Positions 1 to 62,156 of a stretch of DNA of 62,156 nucleotides are shown in pieces. The position numbers and the translations under genes are program-made. The stretch comes from Saprospiraceae bacterium (lineage in GTDB: Bacteria; Bacteroidota; Bacteroidia; Chitinophagales; Saprospiraceae), in the NCBI GenBank assembly GCA_021739645.1, contig JAIPBL010000030.1, positions 1 through 62,156 on the forward strand. Reading direction: 5' to 3'. Position 1 is the first letter of the stretch. Each line of letters begins with the position of its first letter. The notes below the pieces were generated by a model that saw only the letters and a program-made list of their open reading frames with translations, made no database searches and was not told the origin of the DNA.

Positions 1-69
1 TCGCCCAATTTATTGGGCTGACCGAAATAATTTTACAAAAAAACGGTCAGCCCAATAAATTGGGCGACC
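1..69. repeat. Nested palindromic repeat element, copy 1 (left edge cut by window start)
   Basis: Two arms (1-23 and 45-69) flank a spacer (24-44) that starts GAA and ends AAAC. Each arm folds on itself: GGTC, GCCCAAT, a 2-nt loop, ATTGGGC, one unpaired base, GACC. The arms are also reverse complements of each other, so a long single hairpin is the alternative fold. The element ends 9 nt before the ATG at 79. Other copies are at 11310-11391 and 62100-62156. Confidence 0.9.
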
Positions 70-78
70 ACAATCATC

Positions 79-8802: not shown

Positions 8803-8804
8803 GT

Positions 8805-8896
8805 GAATTTACGATTTACGATTTTGGATTTACGATTGGGGGCGTCGAATTGACCAGAGGCTCAATCGTAAATCGTAAATCCAAAATCGTAAATCC
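8805..8896. repeat. TTTACGATT word inverted repeat filling a convergent gap
   Basis: Left arm 8805-8840 and right arm 8861-8896 are made of TTTACGATT and its complement AATCGTAAA and are near-perfect reverse complements, with a 20-nt loop. The element occupies the whole space between the stop codons at 8802 and 8898. The same words occur at 40624-40684. Confidence 0.9.
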
Positions 8897-8897
8897 A

Positions 8898-11300: not shown

Positions 11301-11309
11301 AATTAATGT

Positions 11310-11391
11310 GGCCACCCAATTTTTTGGGTAGGCCGAAATAAATACCATTCCCCCGTCCTTTCAAACGGCCAACCCAATAAATTGGGTGGCC
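11310..11391. repeat. Nested palindromic repeat element, copy 2
   Basis: Left arm 11310-11334: GGCC, ACCCAA, TTTT loop, TTGGGT, A, GGCC. Spacer 11335-11366 starts GAA and ends AAAC. Right arm 11367-11391: GGCC, A, ACCCAAT, AA, ATTGGGT, GGCC. Compared with copy 1 the GGTC/GACC pair has become GGCC/GGCC and the outer G-C pair has become A-T, so pairing is kept. It lies between the gldD stop (11395) and the GH57 ATG (11300). Confidence 0.92.
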
Positions 11392-11394
11392 ATT

Positions 11395-11988
11395 TCATTT
11401 CCACTCAAAAGTCTCAATCATCCGCTCCACGTCCTTCCGCACAAAGTCGTACACAGGAGCTAGACTGTCCGTGTTGGGTTCAGTGTAAAAGTACAATGCC
11501 CCCCTGAAAAAATGCTGCTGCTCCGCCGTGTCGGTTAGGAAAAACTGGAGCTGAGAAGCCACGGGGCCTTCCACCGTAAATAGCATGCCTTTTACATTGT
11601 GCTTCTGGATGAGTATTGGGTTTTCCTGGATATAGGTCGCTTTTTTGTTGTGCCAATCCGTCATCTTGAAGGCATCGGTCTTGAGGCGGTCGGCATTTTT
11701 TTCCTTCGTAATGGGTGCATAGCTGCAATGCAAGCGGCAGTCAAAATCCTTCACGACCACGTTGAACCAGCAGGGGTGCTCTGGTTTTTCATCGAAAAAA
11801 ATCGTGTCCTGCTGGATGACCGCGTACTTAGGATATTCGAACGAAATGCCGCAGTATCCTTCGGTAAATGGCTGGTATGCCTTTTCTGGGTAAACCACCT
11901 TAGGGTAGGCACGGGGCTTGGGCGTCAGGATGGGGTCCTCGCAGGAAGCCAAGAAAAGAACAACGAAAAAAAATGCTAGAAATCTCAT
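11395..11988 (-). CDS. gldD: Gliding motility lipoprotein GldD
   Basis: 197 residues with a lipoprotein signal (FFFVVLFLASC, lipid-attached Cys16). The body matches GldD: TPKPRAYPKVVYPEKAYQ, the CGISFEYPKYA motif near residue 47, and CWFNVVVKDFDCRLHCSY in the middle. GldD is required for gliding and type IX secretion in Flavobacterium and is anchored in the cell envelope. Its gene is normally in a mutY-ssb-gldE-gldD block; here it follows ssb after a 123-nt spacer with no gldE. The stop codon is 3 nt from nested palindrome copy 2. Confidence 0.93.
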   Translation of the reverse strand: MRFLAFFFVVLFLASCEDPILTPKPRAYPKVVYPEKAYQPFTEGYCGISFEYPKYAVIQQDTIFFDEKPEHPCWFNVVVKDFDCRLHCSYAPITKEKNADRLKTDAFKMTDWHNKKATYIQENPILIQKHNVKGMLFTVEGPVASQLQFFLTDTAEQQHFFRGALYFYTEPNTDSLAPVYDFVRKDVERMIETFEWK

Positions 11989-39963: not shown

Positions 39964-40680
39964 ATGCCCACCCGAGCCCACCGCTACCACTACGCCACCC
40001 AATACCCGCACGAGGGCATGCCCGTCGCCAACATCTTCCAGCAAATACACGACAGCGGCGCATGGAACGTCGTTACCACCGAGTCCGTCTCCGGCGAAGG
40101 CTCCACGCTGGTGCAGACCGCCACGCTGCGGGCCGAGCTGCCCGGCCTCCTCCGCAAGTTGGGCATCCGCTCCCTGCTCGACCTCCCCTGCGGCGACTTC
40201 AACTGGATGCAGCGCCTCGACCTTACGGGCATCCGCTACACGGGTGGCGACATTGTGCCCGCCCTCGTGGAGCGCAACCAAGCCCAGTTCGGCAACGAAA
40301 ACCGCCAGTTCCTGCACCTCAACCTGCTCACTGACCCGCTCCCCGCCGCCGACCTGCTCTTCTGCCGTGACTGCCTCGTACACCTCAGCTTCGCCGACAT
40401 ACAGACCGCCCTCGCCAATATCCGGTGCAGCGGTATCACCTACCTTGCCACCACCCATTTTCACGACGAACCTGAAAACGCCAACATCCTCACCGGCGGC
40501 TGGCGGCCACTGAACTTTTTCAAAGCGCCGTTCAAGTTCCCAGCGCCCGTGGCAGAAATCAATGAAAATTGTACGGAGATGGAGGGGGCGTTTAGCGATA
40601 AGTGTTTGGTGGTGTGGAGGGTAGATGATTTACGATTTACGACTGACGATTTACGACTGTCCCCCAATCGTAAATCGTAA
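39964..40680 (+). CDS. Class I SAM-dependent methyltransferase with repeat-encoded tail
   Basis: 238 residues. Motif I is SLLDLPCGDFNWMQ, then TGGDIVPALVERNQ and LLFCRDCLVHLSFADI, which complete the Rossmann core (about 60-170). The N-terminal HYATQYPHEGMPVANIFQ segment is typical of small tail-less methyltransferases of unknown substrate. The last 18 residues (DDLRFTTDDLRLSPNRKS) are encoded by the TTTACGA word repeat at 40624-40684, so the natural stop seems lost and the protein lengthened. It lies 34 nt after the preceding gene. Confidence 0.85.
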   Translation: MPTRAHRYHYATQYPHEGMPVANIFQQIHDSGAWNVVTTESVSGEGSTLVQTATLRAELPGLLRKLGIRSLLDLPCGDFNWMQRLDLTGIRYTGGDIVPALVERNQAQFGNENRQFLHLNLLTDPLPAADLLFCRDCLVHLSFADIQTALANIRCSGITYLATTHFHDEPENANILTGGWRPLNFFKAPFKFPAPVAEINENCTEMEGAFSDKCLVVWRVDDLRFTTDDLRLSPNRKS

Positions 40681-40684
40681 ATCG
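40624..40684. repeat. TTTACGA word inverted repeat forming a gene end
   Basis: GATGATTTACGATTTACGA, CTGACGATTTACGACTG, then AATCGTAAATCGTAAATCG. It encodes the methyltransferase C-terminus and fills the gap to the convergent gene stop at 40686. Same words as 8805-8896. Confidence 0.9.
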
Positions 40685-40685
40685 C

Positions 40686-42137
40686 TTAGTTTTTCCAATC
40701 CTTCCGCTCCTGCTCCCGATGGTGCAGCGCCACCCGCACCCCATATTTTTCCTGGATATGCTTCGCCAACTGGTCGGCAGCATACACCGAGCGGTGCTGC
40801 CCGCCCGTGCAGCCGAAGTTGAAGCTCAGGTCGGTGAAGCTCCGCTCGATATAATTCTCGATGGCGGGGTCGGTGAGCAGGTAAACCTGGTTCAGGAACT
40901 CCTCCATGTTCGAGTGCAGTTGCAGGAAATTGATGACCGACTCATCACGTCCCGTCAGTTTTTTGTATGGTTCATAGAGACCGGGGTTGTGGATGAACCG
41001 GCAGTCGAAGATGAAGCCGCCGCCGTGGCCAGTCGTGTCTTCCGGCAGGCCCTGTTTGTAGCTGAAACTCTGCACGCTTACCGTCAGTAGGCTTGAAGCA
41101 CCCCGCTCCTTGTCGAACGGCTCGAACTTTTTGGAAGAAACAATGGCGTTCAGCGCCTTGGTCAGTTCCGGCAGCTCGATGGGGAAATTGGCATTTTCCA
41201 AAATCCACTTCACGTTGCGGATGGCGAACGGTATGCTCTTGATGAAATACTCCTTCCGTTCGAACAGCCCCCGAAACCCATACGTCCCAAAGGTCTGGAT
41301 GCTGCGGATGAGCACGTAGCCGTGGAAGTATTCGAGGAACTTCGCCCGGTCCACCGGCTTTTGTTTTTCCACCGTGTCGAGGTAATGGTCAAGAAGTTCT
41401 CGACGGATTTCGTCGGGAACATTGGCCTTGGCTTGGAAGAGCAGCGAGGCAAGGTCGTATTGCAGCGCACCCTGTCGTCCGCCCTGATAATCAATGAAAT
41501 AAGGTTCTCCGCCTTTCACCATGATGTTCCTCGCCTGAAAGTCCCGGAACATAAAATGGCTGCAATCCGTCGTCAGCAGGTACTCGGCGAAGCGGTGGGC
41601 ATCGTCCTCCAGTGCTTGCTCGTCAAAGGGGATTTTGGCCAGTTTCAGAAAATAATACTTGAATGTGTTGAAGTCCCAGAGCATACTCTGTTTGTCAAAA
41701 GCCGGGCGTGGGTAGCAGGCCGAGTAGTCCAGCCCCTCGCCGCCCTGGATTTGGAGCAGCGCCAGTTTTTCCACCGTTTTTTTATACAACTGAACGAGGT
41801 AATCGGGAAACTGGTCGCCCGCCTGCAGCAGGTAGCTGTACAGCGTCGTGGCACCGAGGTCTTCTTGGAGGTACACACTGCGGTCGAGGTCTTCGGCGTA
41901 AATGGCAGGCACGGGCAGTCCCTTGGCATGGAAATGTTTGGAAAAACAGAGAAAGGCGTTGTTCTCCTTCCGGTCGAGGTTGTAGGTGCCGATGGCCGTT
42001 TTGCCTGTGCTACTCGACAAGCGGTAGTAGATTCGGGCTGAGCCACTGGGCGCCAGCGGCAGCACGAGGTCGGGGCGGTCGCCACTCCACTGCTCGAAGA
42101 GTTCGGCGAGGGCGTTTTCGATTTGTGTATTGGACAT
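40686..42137 (-). CDS. APH/AmgK-like sugar kinase fused to a RapZ C-terminal domain
   Basis: 483 residues. The N-terminal two thirds (about 10-325) is an aminoglycoside-phosphotransferase-fold kinase: SGSARIYYRL nucleotide loop, catalytic HFMFRDFQARNIMV (RD-x4-N), and metal-binding YFIDYQGGRQG. This resembles AmgK-type anomeric kinases for N-acetylmuramate or glucosamine. The C-terminal third (about 350-483) is RapZ-C: VSVQSFSYKQGLP, FIFDCRFIHNPGL, then SFNFGCTGGQHRSVYAADQLA. In E. coli, RapZ-C binds glucosamine-6-phosphate and small RNAs, and its N-terminal kinase-like part is unrelated. The fusion suggests sensing or salvage of amino sugars for cell-wall synthesis. The gene is followed upstream by a 25-bp inverted repeat. 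Confidence 0.88.
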   Translation of the reverse strand: MSNTQIENALAELFEQWSGDRPDLVLPLAPSGSARIYYRLSSSTGKTAIGTYNLDRKENNAFLCFSKHFHAKGLPVPAIYAEDLDRSVYLQEDLGATTLYSYLLQAGDQFPDYLVQLYKKTVEKLALLQIQGGEGLDYSACYPRPAFDKQSMLWDFNTFKYYFLKLAKIPFDEQALEDDAHRFAEYLLTTDCSHFMFRDFQARNIMVKGGEPYFIDYQGGRQGALQYDLASLLFQAKANVPDEIRRELLDHYLDTVEKQKPVDRAKFLEYFHGYVLIRSIQTFGTYGFRGLFERKEYFIKSIPFAIRNVKWILENANFPIELPELTKALNAIVSSKKFEPFDKERGASSLLTVSVQSFSYKQGLPEDTTGHGGGFIFDCRFIHNPGLYEPYKKLTGRDESVINFLQLHSNMEEFLNQVYLLTDPAIENYIERSFTDLSFNFGCTGGQHRSVYAADQLAKHIQEKYGVRVALHHREQERKDWKN

Positions 42138-42199
42138 ATTTCTTGTTTGGTGAAGGTGTTGGGTAAAAGTAGCAGACTTTTAATTTTCACGCAGGTGCT

Positions 42200-42275
42200 T
42201 TGTCATTGCGAAGCAAACCGTCCACGTCAAGTGTGTTGTCACATAATGCATGGACGGTTTGCTTCGCAATGACAA
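42200..42275. repeat. Perfect 25-bp inverted repeat (REP/MITE-like, GTCATTGCGAAGCAA)
   Basis: Arms 42200-42224 and 42251-42275 are exact reverse complements around a 26-nt loop. The core GTCATTGCGAAGCAA resembles the GTCATTGCGA...GAAGCAATC palindromes found in many unrelated bacteria. Confidence 0.92.
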
Positions 42276-42312
42276 AAGCGGCGATAACCGAGGCATGAAC
42301 CGACGAACAAGC

Positions 42313-45300
42313 TCACCCCTTCACAAAAGCCACCACCTGCTGCCGTTGCCCTGTGGCATTTATGCTCAAAAAATAATACCCCTTTGGCAAATTCACAGCT
42401 TCCATCTGTGTGAAATGGGTTCCAGCAGGCAGGTCAAAATTTTTCCGCAACATCTCCACCCCATTTACCGCTGAAACTGAAAGTCGGACGAGACCATCTT
42501 CGTTGTTGGAAAAACGGACGCCAATCGTCGGGCCGACGGGGTTGGGCACCACCACGGGGGCCACAGGGCCGCCGCTATCTGGAAGCTGGAATTCCAGCAC
42601 GTTGAAGCTGCGCAGTACGGGCACGGCAGGTTGCCAGTCGGTGTTGCCCTGCTGGCTGGCACGGACGATCACAGGGCCAGTCAGCCCAGTCACCGTCAAG
42701 ATGTCACCATTGATGATGGCCGGGCCGCTCGTCACGGTGAATTTGACAGGCAATCCAGACGTGGCTGTGGCATGCAAAATGATGGGAAGTGCAATCGTGA
42801 ATTGGTCACCAATTGGTTGGAAATCAATGGTTTGTTGTTTTGCTGCAACCTGATTCGATAGGCCAGGCGTCGGGAGCTGTGCCTGCCAAGATGTGGGCAG
42901 GGCGTTGTTCAGGCGCCAATCAATAAGTTGAAGGGAAAGGCCGGTACCGTCGGCATCTGGTGGCCAAGGCAGTTTGTTGTCATAGCGCACGGAGTCAATT
43001 ACGGTCAAGTTGGCATTTTTCAGGGAAATGCGCTCGCCGCCGTTGCTCAATTTGAAGCCGTGACTGCCAATGCCGAAGCTCCCCAACCAGTTTGTGGTTT
43101 GGGGGTAAAAACTGGTGAAAGCCGCCTCGTTTTCCACCAACACCAAAAAGCCGCCAGGCTGCAAGGTCGTGTTGGCGTGTAGGTTGAAATAACTCCCGCT
43201 CTCGTCCTCCAGCACCCAGCCGGAAACGTCCACGGCGTGTGTGTTCGGGTTGTAGAGTTCCACCCAATCACCGCCATCGGGCGAATGGTAGTTGATTTCG
43301 TTGATGACGATGGTGTCTGTGGCGATGGAGCCTTTTTTAAAAATGGCTGTCAGTGACTCATTGGCTGTTAGTGTAGTGGAGGTGGCTGAGCTTGCGCCAA
43401 GCGCACTGTTCGACCATTTTTCAAAAACAAAACCCGGTGCTGCATCGGCTTCCACGGGGATTTCTACCCCGGTGAAATACGTGCCGATCCACGGCAGTTT
43501 GTCCGCCGGAAGATGCAGGGTGCTGAAGTGGATGCCGCCGCCGTTTGTGGGTTGTGCTGCCAGTTGGACAGACACTTCCCCGCCAATTTCATCAAAAAAA
43601 TCCACGTACTGCTGCCGCACGAAGGCGGGGCGGTCGTTGCCGAATTTCCTGAGAATCAGCAGGTTGTCGGCCCAGGGATTCCAGCCCGACGACCAACGGT
43701 CGAAGTGGCGTTGCATCTCCGGGGCATACAGCGTTTCAAAGTCGTCAATTCGGCTACTCACTCGGTCGGTTGCAAAAAGCACGTTCAAAAAGTCGGCACT
43801 GCGGTTGATGAAATTGCGCCGGAAGTCGGTGCTCTCCATCGCTTTGCGGAACGGCAGGGTCGTCCACCACGGGTTGGGCCAAGCGATGGAGCTGTCGTCG
43901 AGCGCCCGAGCGAGGGAGTTGGCGGAGGCGTCACCGGTGTTGAACAGGATGTTGCTGCCCTCGATTTTTACCAGCCCAAAACTGAAGTCGAAATCGAAGC
44001 TCAGGAAACGCCAACGGGCATCGCTGCCGTTGCGCTCCCGCCAGCGGCGGAGGTTGTTGCCGGGCCAGTCGCTGTTGTCAATGATGATGTTGAAAGCGTT
44101 GTAATCCAAGAAATGGTCGAGGTCGAGGCGCTGCGCCAACTGCTCGTAGTGGGTCGGGTTGACAAAATTGTGGGTGTTGAAGAACTCCGTGAAATCGTTC
44201 CAGCGGTCAAAGTCGCCCGCCACAGCTTCGCCGTCGTTTTCCAGCAGGTCAATCTCGGTTTCCGTCAGGCCGAAATGCTGCTCGATATAGTCGGTTTTGA
44301 TATGTTCTCGCAGGTTGTGGATGCCCCAATATTGGCCGTTGAGGTAGGCCACGCCGGGCCGGAAGGCTTGCAAATACAGCTTCGGTGGCTCGATGATGCT
44401 GCCCAAATCCGTCAGGTCAGAGACGAGGCTGGCCACGAACGCATCCCGGAACATGGTGACGTTCCAGTCCTGTCCGCCATTGCGCAGCAATAAATTTTTG
44501 TACTCCTCAAACGGCAGTTCGGGAAAGATTGGGTGTTGAAAAAAGCCGCTCCCATTGTTTGCCAACGCCTTTATCTTCAAGGACTTTTGGGGAAACTGAG
44601 CACTGCCTGTTCCGCTCACCTCGGCAGTTGCATCCTGGCTAAAACCCGGCATCCCATCGGTTTCAAAAAACGCCACATGAACGGGGCTTTTCCAATCCTC
44701 GGTATAGTTGGGGTAAATGCCCGTCAGGGTGTCAAAAAAATCGGTGTCCTTGAACGACAGCGCCACCACCGGAAAGTCGTGCGGGGTATCGAAGAGGTAG
44801 CTATGGGTCGTTATGGGGCTGGGCAGATAGCCCGTGGCAAAGGTTCTCGCCCGCAGCGTGGAGTTCTGGGCAATTTGGATTGGATTGCTGTAAAATTGGG
44901 CGCTGCCGTCCGGCTCACTGCCGTCAAGCGTGTAGCGGATTTGGGCGCCGGGCGTTGCGGAGCTGAGTGCCAAGGCGAAAGCACTGCTGAAAAAGCCGCC
45001 ACCCACGGACACCGTTGGCGCTTGTGCAAAGCTGCCGCCGGGCGTCCCACCGTTCGAGGCGAGCGGGGTTGGGGTGGTGAAAAACTGGAAGCTGCTGCTG
45101 CCGTCAGCGCTACGCCCGTAGGAGACATTGGCGGTTTGCGGGCCGAAGGTAAGGGCATCCAGTTGGCTGCCGTCAGCGGCATAGAGCCCCAAATCCTCGC
45201 CACCAGCGCCGAGCTTGAAATTGGCGTGGAGGACGCTCTGCGCAGGTTCGCCATCGAGCCAGAAGAGCAGGTAGCCGCCGGGCTGGATGGTCGTCATTGC

Positions 45301-60763: not shown

Positions 60764-61551
60764 TTTTTTACCACCCCAAACATCCCCTCAAAAACGCCCG
60801 GCGCAGCCGCCAGCAACCTGCCGCCAAAAACGAAATCATCGCCACCATCAAAATCGCTGACCCGTCCCCCAGCTTCCTGCACGAGCAGCACACCTGCCGC
60901 CACGTCCCAAGCGGCAAGGCCATACTCGAAAAACGAGTCGAAGCGGCCGCAAGCCACGTAGGCTAGGTCCACCGCAGCAGCGCCGTAGCGGCGCAGGCCC
61001 CGTGTGTTTTTCATCAGCTCTTGAAGGATTTCGATGTATCGGTGCATGGTGTCAAAATCCCGGTAGGGAAAGCCCGTGGCCACCAGCGAGTCGGCAAGAC
61101 TGGCTGTGGCAGAGGTACTGATTTGCTGGCCGTTCATCCAAGCGCCACCATTTTTCCAAGCATAAAAACATTCTCGGCGGTTCACTTCGTAAACGATGCC
61201 GAGGACGATTTCTTCGTGCTGGCGCAATGCCACGCTTACGGCAAAGCAGGGGAGTTGGTGGAGGAAATTAGTCGTACCATCCAGCGGGTCAATGATCCAC
61301 TGGAACTCCCCGGCGGCCTGTTCAACGGTCTCTTCTTCGGTCAAGAAAGTGGAGCCGGGCAGCAGTTCGCTCAGGCCAGCTACCAGCTTGCGCTCGGCAG
61401 TTTTGTCCACGTAGCTGACGAGGCTGTTGAGGCTTTTCGTTTCAATTTTTTCAGCGCCCACCTTGCCCACTTCGCCCCGGATGAAGTCGGCGACCGAAGT
61501 CACGAGGGTGCAGGTTTGTTGGCAGAGCAGTTCCAGTTCGTTGGTGTTCAT
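60754..61551 (-). CDS. Inositol monophosphatase family protein
   Basis: 265 residues from the ATG at 61551 (MNTNELELLCQQTCTLVTSV); the longer frame to 61590 is not supported. Metal site: FLTEEETV (Glu), WIIDPLDGTTNFLHQLPCFA (DPLDGTTNF), and AAWDVAAGVLLVQEAGGRV in the C-terminal motif. It hydrolyses sugar phosphates such as inositol-1-phosphate or fructose bisphosphate in the cytosol. Its start overlaps the hpt stop by 4 nt (ATGA), so the two are translationally coupled. Confidence 0.93.
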   Translation of the reverse strand: MNTNELELLCQQTCTLVTSVADFIRGEVGKVGAEKIETKSLNSLVSYVDKTAERKLVAGLSELLPGSTFLTEEETVEQAAGEFQWIIDPLDGTTNFLHQLPCFAVSVALRQHEEIVLGIVYEVNRRECFYAWKNGGAWMNGQQISTSATASLADSLVATGFPYRDFDTMHRYIEILQELMKNTRGLRRYGAAAVDLAYVACGRFDSFFEYGLAAWDVAAGVLLVQEAGGRVSDFDGGDDFVFGGRLLAAAPGVFEGMFGVVKNQA

Positions 61552-62087
61552 ATAGTTGATAGTTGATAAACGCTGGGCAAATTGCGGCACAGTCCATTGT
61601 AGTCCAGCCCGTAGCCGACCACGAATTTGTCGGGAATTTCGAAGCCGAGGTAGTCAATGTTTACAGGAAATTGCAGTGCCTCCGGCTTGAAGAGGAGTGC
61701 CGCCAAAGCGACTGAAGCAGGTTGCAGTTTTTGCAGTTCGGCGATGAAATGGTGCAGCGTCCGGCCAGAGTCCACGATGTCTTCCACGACGATGATGTGT
61801 CGGTTTTTTACCTCAAAATCCAAGCCCAGCACCGTGGAAACTTGCCCACTGGACGCCGTGCCTTCGTAAGATGCCAGCCTGACAAACGCCACCTCGCACT
61901 CGATGCTCGCTGCACGAACCAAGTCGGCTGCAAAGACAAACGCTCCGTTCAGCACCCCGACAAACAGTGGGCGCTTGCCCTTGTACTGCTGCCGGATTTG
62001 GCTGCCGAGCGCCATTACCTTGGCCGCTATTTCAGCTTCACTGATGAATGGCTCGAAGGTGAGGTCATGAGCGGTGATATTTTTCAT
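61548..62087 (-). CDS. hpt: Hypoxanthine phosphoribosyltransferase
   Basis: 179 residues. The PRPP-binding motif is IIVVEDIVDSGRTLHHF (about 96-112), with the flexible loop VAFVRLASYEGTASSGQV before it and IDYLGFEIPDKFVVGYGLDY at the base-binding end. It salvages hypoxanthine and guanine to IMP and GMP. It is coupled by a 4-nt overlap to the inositol monophosphatase gene. Nested palindrome copy 3 lies 12 nt upstream of its ATG. Confidence 0.95.
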   Translation of the reverse strand: MKNITAHDLTFEPFISEAEIAAKVMALGSQIRQQYKGKRPLFVGVLNGAFVFAADLVRAASIECEVAFVRLASYEGTASSGQVSTVLGLDFEVKNRHIIVVEDIVDSGRTLHHFIAELQKLQPASVALAALLFKPEALQFPVNIDYLGFEIPDKFVVGYGLDYNGLCRNLPSVYQLSTI

Positions 62088-62099
62088 GGTATCGCTTGT

Positions 62100-62156
62100 G
62101 GTCGCCCAATTTATTGGGCTGACCGAATATCCTGAAACGGTCAGCCCAATAAATTG
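62100..62156. repeat. Nested palindromic repeat element, copy 3 (right edge cut by window end)
   Basis: Left arm 62100-62124: GGTC, GCCCAAT, TT, ATTGGGC, T, GACC, identical to copy 1 wherever copy 1 is present. Spacer 62125-62138 starts GAA and ends AAAC. The right arm begins at 62139 and runs off the window. Confidence 0.93.

Follow-up and report, generated by a model that had tools for sequence, protein, structure and literature searches.

A probable REPIN family of inverted hairpin doublets in Saprospiraceae

Described REP systems and the copies in the window

REPINs of Pseudomonas, E. coli and other bacteria are described as pairs of inverted REPs, separated by a short and highly diverse spacer; they can adopt two alternative folds, leave singlet remnants and are dispersed between genes (PMC3116915; PMC8049555). 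REPs tagged by a GTAG foot form a superfamily of palindromes of 20-40 nt, in which the foot can be a degenerate GTRG (mostly GTGG in one family), doublets carry the foot on the outside, changes in the stem are complementary and convergent copies lie less than 20 bp from both 3′ ends (PMC3733652). The parts of that survey drawn on here list GTAG families for Proteobacteria, Cyanobacteria, Chloroflexi and the PVC group, and Bacteroidetes with CGTC repeats only. RAYT subclasses in Bacteroidetes were described as well (PMC6006769).

The stretch of DNA analyzed here (the window, 62,156 nt) is one whole contig, C7, of a Saprospiraceae genome of 6.16 Mb in 147 contigs (G000). An earlier note had reported three copies of a nested palindrome in the window, and all three were present at the positions given there. 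Copies 1 and 3 are truncated, each at one end of the contig, and copy 2 is located in the interior (11306-11395). The left arm of copy 1 (1..23, + strand) is missing the foot TTGT and the first 2 bases, lost at the contig end, and continues on contig C73 with an overlap of 56 nt. It is followed by a spacer of 21 nt (24..44, + strand) and by the right arm with its foot (45..73, − strand; ACAA on the + strand), which ends 5 nt upstream of an ATG at position 79. Copy 2 consists of a left arm with the foot ATGT (11306..11334, + strand), which matches the covariance model of the family with 42.2 bits (E 1.7e-6), a spacer of 32 nt (11335..11366, + strand) and a right arm with a decayed foot, AAAT on the − strand (11367..11395, − strand; 38.4 bits). 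The left arm of copy 3 with the foot TTGT (62096..62124, + strand) lies 8 nt from the ATG of a minus-strand ORF (61548-62087). Its spacer of 14 nt (62125..62138, + strand) has the commonest length, and the right arm (62139..62156, − strand) is truncated at the contig end and continues on contig C113 with an overlap of 54 nt. No match at the gathering score of Rfam was found within the window.

The inverted two-arm layout described in the earlier note was recovered, with a slightly longer unit that comprises TTGT followed by GGYCRCCCAATTTATTGGGYNGRCC, the spacer and the inverse arm followed by ACAA. A spacer starting with GAA and ending with AAAC, as had been described there, is found in these three copies and in none of the 58 other doublets collected. 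Spacer ends were tallied for 51 doublets, and a G...C pair adjoins the arms in 27 of them.

The arm is a hairpin of 25 nt with 10 pairs and one bulged base, plus a foot, which lies within the 20-40 nt of the imperfect palindromes of the GTAG type. The foot is mostly TTGT followed by GG, and TCGT followed by AG in some species. GTGG was identified in 31 of 34 arms of G000 and 33 of 36 arms of G008, GTAG in 9 of 11 arms of G010, 3 of 8 arms of G006 and 2 of 2 arms of G005; both agree with the GTAG foot or its accepted degenerate forms (GTRG/GTGG), and the prevalence of GTGG over GTAG in G000 is a point against the assignment. In 8 cells the first stem pair changes from G-C to A-U along with the foot. 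A total of 61 inverted doublets with variable spacers, the arrangement of REPINs and BIMEs, was found in 8 genomes, and single arms without an intact partner also occur.

The earlier note knew of no named element with this structure. An inverted hairpin pair with a diverse spacer that folds into a long hairpin or a 'clover' is the published REPIN (PMC3116915; PMC8049555), and inverted hairpins, short diverse spacer, singlet remnants, two folds and intergenic dispersal are all shared with it. With the GTAG-tagged superfamily the Saprospiraceae arms share the palindrome of 20-40 nt, the GTAG foot (degenerate GTRG; GTGG in one family), the dimers with the foot outside, the compensated stem variants and the siting within 20 bp of 3′ ends, as described in PMC3733652; unlike in the repeats described there, the last two bases of the Saprospiraceae foot pair in the stem. 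The CGTC-tagged REPs, reported in Bacteroidetes without a dedicated transposase, likewise form dimers with the foot outside, but the Saprospiraceae foot is GTRG and not CGTC or TGTC, the stem does not start with A-T pairs and the CCA tail given in that survey is absent (PMC3733652). An assignment to the CGTC REPs was rejected, a CGTC/TGTC foot not being found in the foot tally. Since the anatomy closely fits the published descriptions, the element was filed as a REPIN family: each copy is very probably a REP doublet (REPIN/BIME), with inverted hairpins, a GT[G/A]G foot on the outside and an unconserved spacer. It would be a new family of an already known kind, possibly orphaned here. No paper on a Saprospiraceae REPIN family was found in the literature search, which is no proof that none exists.

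Two other kinds of inverted repeats were observed in the window. At 42199-42276 there is a perfect inverted repeat of 26 bp, TTTGTCATTGCGAAGCAAACCGTCCA, with a middle of 26 nt, which resembles a CGTC/TGTC-tagged REP doublet, and inverted repeats of ATTTACGATT units at 8804-8897 and 40627-40684 represent another repeat family.

Fold and covariation of the arms

A lone arm forms a hairpin with a single bulged base, at −14 kcal/mol in one example (L107). The fold of copy 2 reaches −45.2 kcal/mol (z = −7.5), and none of 200 shuffles was as good. Arm-to-arm closure is the predicted fold of the whole copy 2 strand; a reversed hairpin is itself a hairpin, so that the doublet is able to close arm to arm too. 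For copy 2 the GGCC/GGCC and A-T variant described in the earlier note was found, and arm-to-arm pairing, which was said there to be kept, is imperfect (93% complementary); A faces A at the bulge position, and one other position is mismatched.

The covariation statistics were calculated for 61 distinct arms and compared to 500 shuffles, a procedure that ignores the relatedness of the arms. Paired cells amounted to 93.6% (shuffle mean 87.8), double-change cells to 48 (16.8 in shuffles) and the covariation score to 0.232 (0.126 in shuffles), values that were reached in 0 of the 500 shuffles in each case. Neither the pairs that changed on both sides (5 of 10; shuffle mean 3.7; 83 of 500 shuffles) nor the further pair types (12 compared to 11.8; 309 of 500 shuffles) were unusual in number. 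When partners were slid as a control, the paired fraction dropped to 52% or less. The mean frequency of the majority base was 97% in the loop, 88% in the stem, 87% in the foot and 57% at the bulge, which makes the unpaired loop the most conserved part. The earlier reading that the fold and not the sequence is kept thus holds for the fold, and the sequence of the loop is kept as well.

Covariation within and between arms was compared for 53 of the 61 doublets, the other 8 having an arm with more than 2 mismatches. The variable pair 3-23 is Watson-Crick within the left arm in 41 of 46 cases (shuffle mean 29.0) and within the right arm in 42 of 47 (shuffle mean 30.4), both with 0 of 2,000 shuffles as high. 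In the long fold, the inner-inner pair is Watson-Crick in 39 of 53 doublets (shuffle mean 33.2; 97 of 2,000 shuffles) and the outer-outer pair in 35 of 40 (shuffle mean 26.9; 1 of 2,000). In the four doublets with two arm types each arm is internally consistent and none is crossed; 7 doublets have one odd quarter. Covariation is somewhat stronger within than between arms, and because of the pair counts within arms and the internally consistent mixed doublets the single hairpin is favored as the unit, without proof.

The paired changes could be mutational in origin and result from template switching at inverted repeats (quasi-palindrome correction), an explanation that concerns why the fold is kept and not what the element is. 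It would fit the frequent joint change of both halves of a stem pair and the outer-to-outer covariation of the long palindrome (35 of 40 compared to 26.9). It is also in line with a copy in G013 (L052) that decayed by independent substitutions, with 3 mismatches per arm, which indicates that selection is not strong everywhere. However, the facing bulge bases, which correction of the long palindrome should match, match weakly (38 of 53; shuffle 33.1), and the loop sequence is kept (97%) although palindrome correction has no need of it. Template switching was considered a somewhat unlikely explanation for the kept fold.

Distribution, insertion sites and placement at gene ends

When up to 3 mismatches were allowed, a degenerate pattern of 25 nt identified 70 arms in G000 and the reversed-pattern control none; over 60 genomes this control gave 2 matches only, both in G012. 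The covariance model built from the 61 distinct arms yielded 72 matches in G000. Model matches were found in 11 of the 80 genomes searched (G000 included), namely in G000, in 8 of the 13 others of the genus and in 2 further genomes of the family. One of these two, G060, has a single match that resembles coding sequence and is probably due to chance, and the model did not confirm a pattern match with 3 mismatches in G019. Among the matches listed, the named records that carry the exact pattern are Saprospiraceae, Saprospirales, Lewinella and unassigned Bacteroidetes assemblies. As expected for REPs, many copies lie outside genes: the element is inside a called gene in 9 of 111 contexts, a number that counts both halves of a broken element separately. 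Integron attC sites were considered and dropped, the copies being dispersed and not in arrays.

Spacer length ranges between 4 and 260 nt in 53 doublets with good arms, with a mode of 14 in G000 and G008. Many spacers appear unrelated, and common sequence was found in the longer ones of G006, in those of G010 and among L017, L117 and L122. At one site common to G000 and its close relative G013 (flanks of about 91% identity) the spacers measure 12 and 45 nt and differ in sequence, and the arms of G013 are decayed. The 260-nt spacer, found in G010 (L102), holds two more hairpin pairs of the CCCCCGACTTCAGTCGGGGG and TTTTAACCCAAAA types, one nested in the other.

G000 has 294 contig ends, and 43 of them (22 starts, 21 ends) have an arm within 65 nt, including positions 1-73 and 62096-62156 of the window. 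By their unique spacers, the contig ends C7 end and C113, C7 start and C73, C14 end and C93, and C129 end and C28 were paired; a guessed join between L011 and L015 showed no overlap. In practical terms, unique spacers can be used to rejoin assembly contigs. A palindrome TCCCGATAGCTATCGGGA or a near variant was observed at the loop of one arm in six places in G000 (L012, L013, L026, L068, L074 and L089), and in L026, when compared with L108, the TCCCGATAGCTATCGGGA-type palindrome has been inserted in the loop of the hairpin. Exact copies of the core CCCGATAGCTATCGGG number 16 in G000, 3 each in G013 and G003, and none in G008.

For 30 readable combinations of site and species, the element was absent in 26 and present in 4, two of which are decayed. 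The value of 26 out of 30 overstates absence, because the sites (including a set of nine) are mostly those of G000 elements without a known shared copy; at least four further site matches are left out of the 30 combinations (G007 and G010 at the site of L024, G012 and G008 at the site of L028). In one case (L153) the element is absent and almost nothing occupies its place. At the site of copy 1, three relatives (L184-L186) yielded no copy, and the same holds for three relatives at the site of copy 2 (L155, L187, L189), though a copy in G008 (L060) adjoins the same right-hand gene as copy 2. Eleven elements of G000 share their gap or a neighboring gene with a copy in another species, and these fit old, stable elements better than active ones. 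Element-free sites are sometimes filled by other repeats (L154, L189). At the G013 site of the G000 element L073 (L154), another hairpin pair, CCGGAAATCCTTTCC / GGAAAGGATTTCCGG, stands in the same convergent gap of this sister species, which may reflect an insertion hot spot or a need for a hairpin.

Presence and absence at orthologous sites, together with the inverted arms and the variable middle, would also be found for a MITE, its arms serving as terminal inverted repeats for an ordinary (DDE) transposase. Such an element should leave target-site duplications, but no excess over shuffled flanks was detected (32 full elements, 9 boundary offsets). Furthermore, arms without an intact partner exist, every arm is itself a bulged hairpin with internal covariation, and no wide-spaced arm pair around a gene was seen among the arms listed. 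A MITE is therefore extremely unlikely. The presence and absence pattern is compatible with mobilisation by a RAYT, as for REPINs.

Gene contexts were taken from a simple purpose-made gene caller that misplaced some starts, and the tallies of placement omit the 9 contexts within genes and others with mis-called starts or distances of more than 400 nt. A stop codon was found within 10 nt of the element in 52 of 80 three-prime flanks and at 50-75 nt in 11. In tandem gaps, the element is closer to the upstream stop in 25 of 31 cases (p = 0.0009), and in 6 of 12 convergent gaps the distance is 0-8 nt on both sides (L039, L060, L073, L085, L112, L120).

This placement, along with the very stable RNA fold and the copies at orthologous places in several species, would suit RNA hairpins owned by the host, which evolved at gene ends as two-way terminators or protectors of mRNA 3′ ends and are not mobile DNA. 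The flanks do not agree with this. A GC-rich hairpin followed by a T-tract, as in an intrinsic terminator, was not found in the 78 flanks analyzed, in which the leaving side is not T-rich, and a scan limited to loops of 3-8 nt detected no terminator-like site at copy 2. For the flanks with a stop at 50-75 nt, a hairpin with a T-run already lies between gene and element in 5 of the 7 inspected (L004, L030, L071, L107, L113). The element is also present in 10 divergent gaps, and it is missing at most of the orthologous sites examined (26 of 30, mostly chosen as unshared), with almost no replacement at L153. Host-owned hairpins were accordingly regarded as very unlikely.

Link to RAYT transposases and significance

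Y1 transposase genes (PF01797) are common in the genus, with 53 matches in 12 of 14 genomes. None adjoins a family arm in the 14 genus genomes, several of which are incomplete; 34 of the 53 matches were checked in sequence, and the other 19 were compared by coordinates with listed arms only, the lists being incomplete for some genomes. No Y1/RAYT gene was detected among the ORFs within 1.7 kb of the arm loci L202-L272. In this respect the Saprospiraceae family may differ from REPINs, as no RAYT was found beside it within its own genus.

The nearest Y1 gene, on contig C41 of G006, is 1.76 kb from an arm, and three arm sites are located within 12 kb. This number seems higher than expected and may hint at a link. 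The motif of the protein, YIQDQEIHH, is closer to the non-REP subclass 1.2 than to a RAYT; this subclass is described as lacking typical terminal structures (PMC6006769). Long GTCCCGTAGGGACGC repeat arrays were observed on both sides of the gene (L282, about 41500-43300). With this motif and flanking arrays of its own, the enzyme was provisionally set aside as a candidate for the cognate transposase.

In the neighboring genus, a Y1 ORF on contig C69 of G014 carries the motifs NHVH and YILNNP, which fit the NH[IFV]H and YIxNNP of TnpA_REP subclass 2.4, a subclass that includes Bacteroidetes according to PMC6006769; the assignment is by motifs only. Four hairpins GTA[G/T]CCGTCAAATTTATTTGACAGGCT follow downstream of this ORF; upstream of it, the same AAATTTATTT core recurs in eleven hairpins, four of which have a GTAG foot. 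Between the GTA[G/T]CCGTCAAATTTATTTGACAGGCT hairpin and an arm of G005 (L053:1501-1529), the differences are one compensated base pair plus the last base; compared to the arm of G010, three pairs are changed, all of them compensated. Hairpins with a core as in G014 (AATTTATT) also accompany a second RAYT, found in G023. Judged from sequence, the apparent RAYT link is confined to this near-identical hairpin in the neighboring genus.

Within the genus, relatives of the G014 protein share 36-48% identity in the parts that matched. The hairpins found around them have another sequence, and no family arms were present in these RAYT loci. Many RAYT-like genes of the Saprospiraceae are surrounded by separate hairpin families; within the genus, such genes were observed at L033, L034, L037, L139, L140, L305-L308, L310-L313, L315-L317 and L319. 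Since several of these genes are flanked by other inverted hairpin pairs, the mechanism exists here.

By analogy, a RAYT (a Y1 HUH transposase acting in trans) would likely have produced the copies by cutting and joining the foot and hairpin on single-stranded DNA. The hairpin, loop and bulge may be kept through recognition by the transposase, or in part through template-switch correction of the stems. Where copies settled beside stop or start codons, transcription probably yields RNA hairpins, which may have a modest effect on mRNA ends; in E. coli, REPs near stop codons reportedly affect translation. The cognate RAYT seems to be lost or unassembled in the genus of the window, so that the family may now be an orphan population. 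A fuller version, in which hairpin-perfect copies, some at the same site across species, persist with the cognate RAYT gone, either through the Y1 of another family in trans or through adoption by the host as gene-end elements, was considered unlikely.

The finding adds a well-populated REPIN family for an environmental clade of the Bacteroidota. The RAYT-like genes of the genus with their own hairpins provide material for RAYT-REP co-evolution, and since a close relative of the family hairpin accompanies a RAYT-like gene in the neighboring genus, the joint change of RAYT and hairpin may be studied across genera.
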